Assembly (NCBI RefSeq): GCF_014268655.2
Contig: NZ_JABWQX020000002.1
Coordinates: forward strand, 456,501-520,500
Source of the DNA: Pseudomonas marvdashtae
GTDB taxonomy: Bacteria > Pseudomonadota > Gammaproteobacteria > Pseudomonadales > Pseudomonadaceae
DNA length: 64,000 nucleotides
Direction: 5' to 3'
Both the position numbers and the translations under genes were made by a program. This document shows, one piece after another, positions 5,231 through 7,752 of the stretch (position 1 is the first letter of the stretch; each line of letters starts with the position of its first letter). The notes below the pieces were generated by a model. The model did no database searches, had not been told where the DNA came from, and saw only the letters and a list, made by a program, of their open reading frames with translations.

Positions 5231-5542
5231 ACGCTGCTACCAAGTAGACACCGAACCCCGTGGCGAGGGAGCTTGCTCCCGCTGGGCTGCGCAGCAGCCC
5301 CTCTTCATCCATCGGGCAACCGCTCACGCCAGCCAAATGAAGCCCTGTCAGTAAAGCCCGACAGACACTGTCCAAAAGGGGACCAGATCCATTTATTACT
5401 ACGCTGCTCAGTTGAGTAAACACTGAACCCCGTGGCGAGGGAGCTTGCTCCCGCTGGGCTGCGCAGCAGCCCCTCTTCATCCATCGGCCTACCGCTCACC
5501 CCAGCCAAATGAAGCCCTGTAAGCAAAGCCCGACAGACACCG
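5231..5542. repeat. Tandem pair of a REP-like intergenic repeat
   Basis: Two copies of a roughly 140-bp unit, 5231-5370 and 5401-5542, lie 170 bp apart in the same orientation and are nearly identical. Each carries GTGGCGAGGGAGCTTGCTCC followed by a GGGCTGCGCAGCAGCCC palindrome and a tail ending in AAAGCCCGACAGACAC. The 28-bp spacer between them is unique. Short translations through these units (for example on the minus strand) are artefacts. This pair fills most of the stretch 4965-5660, in which I see no intact gene. Confidence 0.8.
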
Positions 5543-5659
5543 GCACAAAGCCTCGCCAGCCCACGTCGCCTTGCGCCTTTGCCTACAACTACGCCAGAAT
5601 CCGCCGGCTTGTGCGCCTTTGGTTACGTCGGTAGTTTGGGTCCTGTCGCTGCTCATCAG

Positions 5660-5863
5660 TGATCGGGTTTAGCAGCTCGCCGAGTTAAGTCGCACAACGC
5701 GTCATCAGTCAGGAATCCCCATCCCTGCACTTGATGGTGGCTGTGCGCAGGGCGCCCTCGGGCGCGCCGATTTCTTAACTCGTCGGTCTGCTAACCTGCG
5801 TACAGCTGCCTCCCAATTCGTTTAGCAGCGAACGGGTCGTGGCCTCAACAGAGAGTTAAGACC
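5660..5863 (+). promoter_or_regulatory. Structured 5' leader of DUF6124 gene copy A, candidate RNA switch
   Basis: Box 1 consists of TTAGCAG (5669-5675) and GAGTTAAG (5682-5689). Box 2 consists of the exact reverse complements CTTAACTC (5774-5781) and CTGCTAA (5788-5794). Box 3 repeats TTAGCAG (5822-5828) and GAGTTAAG (5853-5860), ending 3 bp before the ATG. Box 2 can pair with box 1 or, in an equally nested way, with box 3, which would bury the ribosome-binding site. Between boxes 1 and 2 lies a hairpin GCGCC-CTCG-GGCGC. A second copy at 7185-7392 has different box sequences with the complementarity preserved. Confidence 0.65.
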
Positions 5864-6223
5864 ATGGTCAAAATTACACCGAACCCTCCCGTTACCGACG
5901 AACACGTCTCCCGTGCTCAGTCTGCCCGCAACAAGAAAATCGACGACGCTGCCACGCGGGCGTTGGATTTTTATTTGAAGCCCAAGCCTAAGGACGAAAA
6001 GTCAGACAAGACCGACTCCATTTTCCGGATTGATCCGGGTGTGGATTCTGAATGTTTGCTTGCGAACCTCAGTGAGAACCTGGCTTCGGCGAATGCCATG
6101 ATCAGTGATTTGGCATTCGATCTGGATGGCTCGCGAAGGCAAGTTGCGTTGGGGATTTTGCAGGTGATCGAAGTGAGTGAACTGTTGGCGAATCGGGCTT
6201 TGGATATTGTTGAAGTAAGATAG
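5864..6223 (+). CDS. DUF6124 family protein, copy A
   Basis: 119 residues starting MVKITPNPPVTDEHVSR. It has a basic, proline-rich N-terminal third and a C-terminal region (about 55-119: LLANLSENLASANAMISDLAFDLDGSRR) predicted to be helical. I recognise this as the Pseudomonas-restricted DUF6124 family, of unknown function. No signal peptide or membrane segment. The paralogue at 7393-7752 differs at only 7 of 119 positions. Expression is probably controlled by the structured leader immediately upstream. The gene is closed by an intrinsic terminator. Confidence 0.85.
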   Translation: MVKITPNPPVTDEHVSRAQSARNKKIDDAATRALDFYLKPKPKDEKSDKTDSIFRIDPGVDSECLLANLSENLASANAMISDLAFDLDGSRRQVALGILQVIEVSELLANRALDIVEVR

Positions 6224-6403: not shown

Positions 6404-7012
6404 ATGACCGCTGTCTCGACACTCAAACAGTACTCACTAAAAAGCTGGGCCGCGATAGTGGCTGTTGTTGGCTTACTGGCTGGGTTCCCTAGCATTTCAT
6501 CTTGGTTGGCCGAAATGAGGGCCGACTACTACAAAAGCCATTTCATTGGTCGTTGGAACGAAGAGTTCAGCTATCCCAATGCCGAAGGCGTCCAGTTCGA
6601 GTTCAAGGGCATGATCGAATACTTCGCCAACGACCATTACAACGTCAGCGGCGTGGTCGCGCTGGTTGGAACAGACCCTTCGAAACCTTACAGACTCGAA
6701 TACAGCGCCAATGGCGCCGGTACCTGGAGCGCTGATAGCGAAAACCTGTCGTTCACGCTTCTGCAAATGAAAACGTTACCCAAGACCTACACGGTTGACG
6801 GCAAAGACATATCGCCTTTGACGGTGGCGCAACTGATCGGGCCCAGCATGCCCAACCTCAGCGATATGTACCCGGCAGGGGCGTCGGGGCAGGCGCGCAT
6901 CAAGGAGCTGAAAAAGGACAAGATGGTCTTGGAGCAAATGGACCCGCAGGGCAAGCCCTACATCGTGACGGGCCATCGCCAGGTCGTTGAGCAGCCTGGG
7001 CAGCCTGATTGA
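6404..7012 (+). CDS. Hypothetical membrane-anchored protein
   Basis: 202 residues with a good ribosome-binding site (AGGAG, 6 bp before the ATG). Residues about 14-34 (WAAIVAVVGLLAGFPSISSWL) form one membrane segment or an uncleaved signal. The rest is a soluble domain opening with FIGRWNEEF and continuing with alternating strands, the style of a lipocalin-like or META-like beta barrel. No catalytic motif is recognised. It sits between the two DUF6124 copies and may have been trapped when that unit was duplicated. Confidence 0.65.
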   Translation: MTAVSTLKQYSLKSWAAIVAVVGLLAGFPSISSWLAEMRADYYKSHFIGRWNEEFSYPNAEGVQFEFKGMIEYFANDHYNVSGVVALVGTDPSKPYRLEYSANGAGTWSADSENLSFTLLQMKTLPKTYTVDGKDISPLTVAQLIGPSMPNLSDMYPAGASGQARIKELKKDKMVLEQMDPQGKPYIVTGHRQVVEQPGQPD

Positions 7013-7184
7013 GGATTGGATACCCGGATGAAGTGGCCAGCGTCAGCCGGGTCTGTCAGACGCTGGGCGACCGCAGCCCATCAGCCCACATCACCTTGCG
7101 CCGTTACCTACAACTACGCCAGAATCCGCCGGCTTGTGCACCTTGGGCCGCGTCGGTAGTTTGGGTTCGGTCACTGCTTATCAG

Positions 7185-7392
7185 TGATCGGGTTTAGTCG
7201 CCCGCCGTAGCTAAGTCGCTCAAGCGCCCGTCAGTCAGGTACCCCCATCCCTGCACTCGATGGTGGCTGTGCGCAGGGCGCCCTCGGGCGCGCCGATTCC
7301 TTAGCTCGTCGGTCGACTAACCTGCGTACAGCTGCCTCCCAATCGTTTAGTCGCGAGCGGGTCGTAGCCTCAACCAAAAGAGAGCTAAGACC
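7185..7392 (+). promoter_or_regulatory. Structured 5' leader of DUF6124 gene copy B, candidate RNA switch
   Basis: Same architecture as the leader at 5660-5863. Box 1 is TTAGTCG (7194-7200) plus AGCTAAG (7209-7215). Box 2 is CTTAGCT (7300-7306) plus CGACTAA (7314-7320). Box 3 is TTAGTCG (7347-7353) plus AGCTAAG (7383-7389), ending 3 bp before the ATG. Relative to copy A each box carries three substitutions, all compensated in the other two boxes. The segment between boxes 1 and 2 (7240-7298) is almost unchanged. Confidence 0.65.
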
Positions 7393-7752
7393 ATGGTCAA
7401 AATTACACCGAATCCTCCCGTTACCGATGAGCACGTGTCACGTGCTCAGACTGCGCGGAACAAGAAAATCGATGATGCGGCCACTCGCGCGTTGGATTAC
7501 TACCTGAAACCCAAGCCCAAGAGCGAAACGTCTGACAAGCCCGACTCCATTTTTCGGATTGATCCGGGGATTGATTCTGAGTGTTTGCTTGCGAATCTCA
7601 GTGAGAACCTGGCTTCGGCGAATGCCATGATCAGTGATTTGGCGTTTGACTTGGATGGATCGCGGCGGCGGGTTGCGTTGGGGATTTTGCAGGTGATTGA
7701 GGTGAGTGAGCTGTTGGCGAATCGGGCTTTGGATATTGTTGAGGTGAGGTAG
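7393..7752 (+). CDS. DUF6124 family protein, copy B
   Basis: 119 residues, 112 of them identical to copy A (changes S20T, F36Y, D44S, K46T, T50P, V60I, Q93R). Same start context (the AGCTAAG box, then ACC-ATG) and same predicted helical C-terminal region. The duplication covers about 300 bp of leader as well as the gene, so it is a duplication of the whole regulatory unit. Function unknown. Followed by a terminator that is itself part of a degenerate tRNA end. Confidence 0.85.
   Translation: MVKITPNPPVTDEHVSRAQTARNKKIDDAATRALDYYLKPKPKSETSDKPDSIFRIDPGIDSECLLANLSENLASANAMISDLAFDLDGSRRRVALGILQVIEVSELLANRALDIVEVR

Follow-up and report, generated by a model that had tools for sequence, protein, structure and literature searches.

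Chromosomal C4-type antisense RNA leaders with matching boxes upstream of DUF6124 genes in Pseudomonas

Two C4-bearing leaders and their boxes

The window is the whole stretch of 64,000 nucleotides of Pseudomonas marvdashtae DNA that we analysed, and on its plus strand two tandem leaders, copy A and copy B, each precede a gene for a DUF6124 protein. In covariance-model searches both leaders matched the C4 antisense RNA family (RF01695) above its curated cut-off of 45 bits. We name box 1 as a1/b1, box 2 as b'/a' and box 3 as a2/b2 because the record of phage P1 (AF234172) annotates the same order, which is a1, b1, C4 of 77 bases, a2, b2 and icd. Between the two copies lies a 202-aa open frame (window 6404-7012) that had no match in Pfam, NCBIfam or PHROG. 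The features are as follows.

Copy A
5609..5637, plus strand, promoter-like pair: TTGTGC 5609-5614, 17 bases, TAGTTT 5632-5637
5664..5689, plus strand, box 1: a1 TTAGCAG 5669-5675 in hairpin 5664-5679, b1 AGTTAAG 5683-5689
5730..5816, plus strand, C4 antisense RNA (RF01695, 78 bits)
5774-5780 and 5788-5794, plus strand, box 2: b' CTTAACT and a' CTGCTAA
5822..5860, plus strand, box 3: a2 TTAGCAG 5822-5828, b2 AGTTAAG 5854-5860
5864..6223, plus strand, DUF6124 protein, 119 aa (PF19619, E 2.2e-28)

Copy B
7134..7162, plus strand, promoter-like pair: TTGTGC 7134-7139, 17 bases, TAGTTT 7157-7162
7171..7187, plus strand, 5' inverted repeat TCACTG...CAGTGA, the first stem of the Rfam c4-a1b1 model
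7189..7204, plus strand, hairpin CGGG-TTTAGTCG-CCCG presenting a1
7194-7200, plus strand, box 1, a1: TTAGTCG
7209-7215, plus strand, box 1, b1: AGCTAAG
7256..7342, plus strand, C4 antisense RNA (RF01695, 72 bits)
7300-7306, plus strand, box 2, b': CTTAGCT, the loop of stem P3
7314-7320, plus strand, box 2, a': CGACTAA, a C4 stretch without pairing
7347-7353, plus strand, box 3, a2: TTAGTCG
7383-7389, plus strand, box 3, b2: AGCTAAG, overlapping the 3' end of the purine run GAGAG, with the ATG 3 bases on
7393..7752, plus strand, DUF6124 protein, 119 aa (PF19619, E 3e-28)

In both copies the upstream a1/b1 and the a2/b2 in front of the start codon are exact complements of a' and b'. The mature C4 of copy B is predicted at about 7262-7338, with its ends placed after the 77-base C4 of phage P1 and the GGW start; of the processing features, the sequence shows the P1 stem and the GG(T) start, which in copy B is GGT at 7262-7264. 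The mature C4 folded at -47.7 kcal/mol in A and in B, and b' and a' were both open in these folds. Searched against RF03163 (c4-a1b1) at laxer settings, the upstream parts scored 31.5 bits (E 1.4e-5) in A and 30.2 bits (E 3.3e-5) in B. The 5' inverted repeat and the a1-presenting hairpin of that motif are matched in both copies at scores below its gathering score of 46.7, which was passed at two other loci of the same genome. The hairpin has four standard pairs in 29 of the 31 leaders of this genome and three in L014 and L019, with the hairpin counted for L061 not being the true a1.

The box words that the original prediction gave for copy B were all located at exact positions. Relative to copy A each box carries three substitutions, two in the a half and one in the b half, so that nine changes leave every pair Watson-Crick. 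The T-G pair of copy A in the inner 1:2 helix is indeed a C-G pair in copy B (CTCG in A, CCCG in B), and the same bases also form the closing stem of the 4-bp hairpin that presents a1. Near identity of the segments between boxes, as originally described, applies to the C4 body outside the boxes, where A and B are 98% identical, and does not extend to the spacer 5' of C4 (82%). The idea that differing boxes could keep the two leaders from cross-pairing agrees with the computed duplexes, which were weaker for non-cognate than for cognate partners: the C4 of A gave -21.1 kcal/mol with a2/b2 of A and -14.9 with those of B (cognate margin 6.2), and the C4 of B gave -21.8 with a2/b2 of B and -17.0 with those of A (margin 4.8). 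Co-folding of mature C4 with a2/b2, a method that cannot model loop-loop pairing, showed zero gain in all four combinations of C4 and target.

Agreement of the three boxes across leaders

We parsed 140 leaders, a non-random sample drawn from the own genome, Pseudomonas sp. Q11, the best-scoring matches in the genus and a group of copy B homologues; 136 were distinct, and one stayed unparsed. A 7-base a word stood in the a1 hairpin and in a2, with its complement in C4, in 129 of the 136 distinct leaders, which comprise 19 a-types, while random re-pairing of one target would be expected to give exact a matches in both targets in about 18 of 136. When leaders of the own genome were re-paired, 0 of 20000 re-pairings reached the cognate mean, for b':b1, b':b2, a':a1 and a':a2 alike, a test that leaves the kinship between copies in place. 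The joint change of the three boxes is thus seen in many copies beyond A and B.

Four nearly complete sets, from the own genome (31 leaders), Q11 (G542, 29), G547 (29) and G125 (29), gave 118 leaders. They took in 30 of the 35 C4 matches of G542 and 30 of the 33 of G125, and G542, G547 and G125 each had one unparsed leader. In strict register the three-way a box was found in 104 of the 118, including 28 of the 31 own leaders, with 7 of 7 a bases matching at both sites. Sliding the register and adding the three unparsed leaders raised this to 113 of 121. Five strict-register misses (L273, L277, L297, L301 and L306) are parsing artefacts, and L175, L272 and L308, which had stayed unparsed, show a full match when judged by eye; the eight sliding-register misses are L020 and seven copies with a single mismatch. 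Leaders in which only two of the three boxes remain complementary, the pattern named at the outset as speaking against conservation of both helices, were sought and proved rare: L020 lacks box 3 and L042, which lies outside the four sets, lacks box 1. In L020 box 3 has been replaced, most of the gene is gone and the DUF6124 match is partial. Where L020 lacks box 3 and L042 lacks box 1, palindromic repeat-like sequence is present instead, and the window itself holds two near-identical GC-rich repeats at 5259-5300 and 5437-5478 (GTGGCGAGGGAGCTTGCTCCCGC...) that resemble the sequence replacing box 3 in L020.

The expectation that box changes are always compensated three ways held in nearly all leaders for the a half and proved too strong for the b half. 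Among 23 homologues with A- or B-type loops, relatives of the B type had an exact b1 in 6 of 16 and an exact b2 in 13 of 16, and those of the A type had an exact b2 in 7 of 7 and an exact b1 in 5 of 7; the inexact b1 sites contain a G-U pair or are mismatched at an end. Runs of at least six b pairs occurred in 118 of 130 leaders for b1 and 121 of 130 for b2. Because such runs are also frequent in non-cognate pairings (34% and 63%), energies are the better measure of the b half. By this measure b':b1 reached -12.7 kcal/mol in cognate vs -7.5 in non-cognate pairings and b':b2 reached -14.4 vs -8.3, for 130 of 136 leaders; the remaining six had a box or the start missing, and a misplaced start codon lies behind several of the weak b2 values. 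When sites were anchored on the a1 hairpin, the cognate b':b1 was the best partner in 17 of 31 leaders, compared with 7 of 31 for fixed upstream windows, which are weak for b1 and a1 because the distance to C4 varies. Box b1 is the loosest of the boxes. A start could be located in 29 own leaders, and in 22 of them the duplex formed by b' overlaps a purine-rich Shine-Dalgarno-like four-mer.

Copy number, distribution and private addresses

The own genome has 31 C4 matches, each above the cut-off, and 34 DUF6124 matches; 26 of the C4s sit within 600 bases upstream of a DUF6124 match, and 8 of the DUF6124 matches have no C4 in front. In the genus C4 was present in 138 of 149 genomes and DUF6124 in 118, all of which also have C4, leaving 20 genomes with C4 and no DUF6124. 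Per-genome counts of the two were correlated over the 149 genomes (Spearman 0.87, with C4 entered as at least 27 in 34 of them and DUF6124 counted up to 38 per genome). Among 398 sampled proteobacterial genomes, 62 had C4 and 6, own genome included, had DUF6124 above its cut-off, each of these in the genus Pseudomonas; a seventh DUF6124 match, in a genome of another family, fell below the cut-off. Around queA, 21 loci in Pseudomonas-like records (L078 left out) had C4 at 5, and of seven loci compared only the C4 of Pseudomonas sp. Q11 aligned to copies A and B. Assigning orthology from 1.5 kb flanks was abandoned, as it yielded few usable pairs, some of them false through repeats.

Several loci depart from the common arrangement. 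In L011, L014 and L016 of the own genome C4 lies 5' of a different small protein of 90-94 aa without a Pfam match, and the b2 site of L016 is weak. The gene looks lost behind the C4 unit L001 and frameshifted behind L061. Four DUF6124 loci of the own genome have no C4 and retain an RF03163 match (L319 1005-1056, L320 999-1051, L321 931-983 and L322 988-1040), two of them above the gathering score; they are possibly C4-deletion derivatives or targets in trans, and their energies against the C4 set, computed with longer targets, are not comparable with the cognate values. Just 3' of a C4-less DUF6124 gene there is a PrrF RNA match (L324 1529-1676, 166 bits).

A promoter-like pattern with a spacing of 16-18 occurred in 74 of the 118 leaders of the four genomes vs 7 of 2360 shuffles, and the upstream element CTACAACTACGCCAGAATCCGCC in 75 of 118. 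We regard the promoter-like pair as suggestive only, because a scan for the standard sigma-70 consensus detected no promoter in the leader region. A TTGTGC-17-TAnnnT pair and CTACAACTACGCCAGAATCCGCC recur in about two thirds of the units, as would be expected of a single regulon; in the window these lie at 5590-5640 and 7110-7165.

No b' loop was repeated within any of the four genomes among the 118 parsed leaders. Of 26 loops common to at least two of these genomes, 25 keep the same a-type everywhere, and in the exception, L001, a1, a' and a2 have all changed together. Tandem copies with near-identical coding sequence carry different loops, as in L023 and L024, whose products of 121 aa are identical. 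At an identity of at least 0.85 in coding sequence and C4 stem, the loop was the same in 0 of 14 within-genome vs 31 of 80 between-genome pairs (Fisher 0.0039), and at a coding identity of at least 0.90 in 0 of 6 vs 10 of 23 (p 0.068); these pairs are not independent, the A/B tandem for example being also present in G547. Where loops were near-identical, the a-type differed in 5 of 6 within-genome vs 16 of 94 between-genome pairs (Fisher 0.0014, again on non-independent pairs). A further genome, G601, has two copies with one common loop and different a-types. This contrast between paralogues and orthologues is confounded, since tandem pairs with near-identical coding sequence have diverged in their spacers too; gene conversion limited to the coding part, instead of selection on the boxes, may explain some of it.

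Summed over a and b, the own C4 was the best partner for a1/b1 in 24 of 31 leaders of the own genome, 23 of 29 in G542, 23 of 29 in G547 and 21 of 29 in G125, and for a2/b2 in 24 of 31, 18 of 29, 17 of 29 and 22 of 29, respectively. The cognate mean was reached by 0 of 5000 re-pairings in each case of genome and site. Because the cognate partner is best in only part of the leaders and the median cognate gap is small (1.5-3.5 kcal/mol), the predicted insulation between units is real on average and partial by energy.

Proposed control, its rivals and related systems

Instead of being an unrecognised element, the leader has the C4/a1b1 arrangement that is annotated in phage P1. Like the immI operon c4-icd-ant of P1 and P7 (RF01695), the Pseudomonas leaders combine the C4 fold with the order a1, b1, C4 (77 bases in the phage), a2, b2 and start codon. 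As described in PMC5320573, RNase P processes C4 at a GGW start, the b' loop partly covers the ribosome-binding site and a' gives specificity. According to the same text, which cites Citron and Schuster 1990, P1 and P7 differ by 4 bases, and this difference limits their cross-reaction. We aligned the immI leaders of P1, P7, D6, 813R1, MH422554, 673R5 and JL22 and judged their boxes by eye. The a1, a' and a2 boxes agree in 7 of 7 phages, which show two a-types. The b1, b' and b2 boxes do so in 6 of 7, the exception being 673R5 with its two-base insertion in b1, and they fall into four b-types. P7 and JL22 have a common b and different a, so parts have been combined freely. Because P1-like phages show the same rule, the triple box change is the expected behaviour of the C4 family and its box logic was already known. 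Across these phage records (L310-L316) the free mix of two a-types and four b-types suggests more C4 immunity groups than those of P1 and P7.

Each leader is very probably a chromosomal C4 antisense RNA control unit, in which a C4 RNA cut from the leader would repress its own gene through a two-part address. This reading combines analogy with P1 and what can be read from the DNA, namely the order a1/b1, C4, a2/b2 and start codon, the C4 fold, the complementarity of b' and a' and the position of b2 at the ribosome-binding region. As in P1, leader and gene would form one transcript, from which RNase P would free a C4 RNA of about 77 bases that could pair with a2 and b2 and block translation of the DUF6124 gene. 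The a1/b1 pair would offer a second, equally strong docking site, as decoy or precursor target, and may tune or autoregulate C4. In the own genome mean binding of the own C4 was -23.7 for a1/b1 and -23.6 for a2/b2, and because a1/b1 is as good a site as a2/b2, it could be a decoy, a precursor target or a cis partner. Jointly, the a and b boxes would serve as a two-part address that keeps paralogous units from silencing each other.

The joint change of the boxes had originally been taken to mean that both alternative pairings matter. That both should occur within one molecule is unneeded, because the middle part in P1 is a separate processed RNA that acts on target boxes (as set out for C4 in PMC5320573); conservation of box 1 is compatible alike with cis and trans pairing and cannot separate them. 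One rival reading is a switch acting only in cis, in which the helices between boxes 1, 2 and 3 would exclude each other on a single nascent transcript, in the manner of an attenuator, and no free C4 RNA would act. Such a switch would account for the equal conservation of both helices, and the whole-leader fold of A does form the 1:2 helix (6.1 of 7 a1:a' pairs and 6.7 of 7 b1:b' pairs), but this helix is absent from the whole-leader fold of B. Moreover, the middle box sits in a self-contained, conserved C4 fold with the processing-site sequence of P1 and Acinetobacter, for which a pure switch would have no need, and we consider the cis-only switch improbable.

A shared network, in which C4 RNAs would mainly hit several DUF6124 messages and the boxes would mark cross-reacting families instead of private addresses, seems to us only slightly less improbable than a cis-only switch. 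Non-cognate partners lie within a few kcal/mol, a G-U pair allows the b' loop of B to pair with b2 of A, and the four C4-less DUF6124 loci keep an a1/b1-like leader, yet loops do not repeat inside a genome and near-identical loops tend to have different a-types. We give very little credence to mutation or recombination as the sole cause, by which boxes 1 and 3 as direct repeats and box 2 as their inverted repeat would copy one another without any function. Recombination is plausible between copies in tandem pairs, but conversion would bring flanks along and the flanks of the three boxes differ. Orthologues, in addition, keep their address, and the three-way rule also holds in coliphages. Returning to C4 control units acting through private addresses, we tentatively extend them to the genus as a possible wider picture that is slightly less likely than not: many Pseudomonas genomes would carry about 30 C4 units co-transcribed from a shared type of promoter, with a two-part address (a-type and b loop), kept distinct by selection against cross-silencing and retained by orthologues, so that an immunity-type code placed in the chromosome would have come to give private control of one protein family.

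The Pseudomonas units differ from P1 in being chromosomal, at about 30 copies per genome, and in having a shared upstream element and promoter-like pair where P1 has a C1-controlled promoter. Their target DUF6124 has no detectable similarity to Icd of P1: BLASTP between the two returned nothing at E 100, and where the phage immunity operon has icd and ant downstream, the gene here is DUF6124. The C4 and c4-a1b1 motifs are both among those listed in the motif survey of Weinberg et al. 2010 (PMC2864571). The Group 1 sRNAs of Acinetobacter baumannii, in the account given in PMC5320573, are likewise C4-like RNAs present many times in one genome, with 21 similar sequences, and are produced by processing of longer transcripts, but their targets are described there as not known, whereas each unit here has its own matching target sites, mostly before one protein family. 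In the literature that we searched, no paper described multiplication or private addresses of C4 for Pseudomonas, and none dealt with DUF6124 or RF03163. The C4/a1b1 box logic is known; what is new is its multiplication in the chromosome, with DUF6124 as target and with private addresses. In paralogous type I toxin-antitoxin pairs, too, a genome has families of antisense RNAs whose targets are private; they differ from the Pseudomonas units in that toxicity of DUF6124 is without support.

A known mechanism, multiplied in bacterial chromosomes, explains a striking box pattern. The dozens of natural antisense-target sets per genome, together with their orthologues, offer a route to how antisense RNAs keep their specificity, and let one ask how change is possible in a pairing code that involves three sites. 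The link to C4 is also a first handle on DUF6124, which is nearly confined to Pseudomonas in the 398-genome sample. Searches of Pfam, NCBIfam and PHROGs assigned nothing more than the DUF6124 label, with no PHROG match. The predicted structure has three helices (mean pLDDT 76.9, pTM 0.56), and a comparison of this model with the PDB gave no match with E up to 0.001. That DUF6124 is toxic or affects growth, as Icd of P1, is a guess by analogy. Relatives of DUF6124 were found in zero plasmid records and in one phage record, that of Pseudomonas phage DVM-2008, where the relative lies at the extreme end of the record (EU982300.1 52-405).
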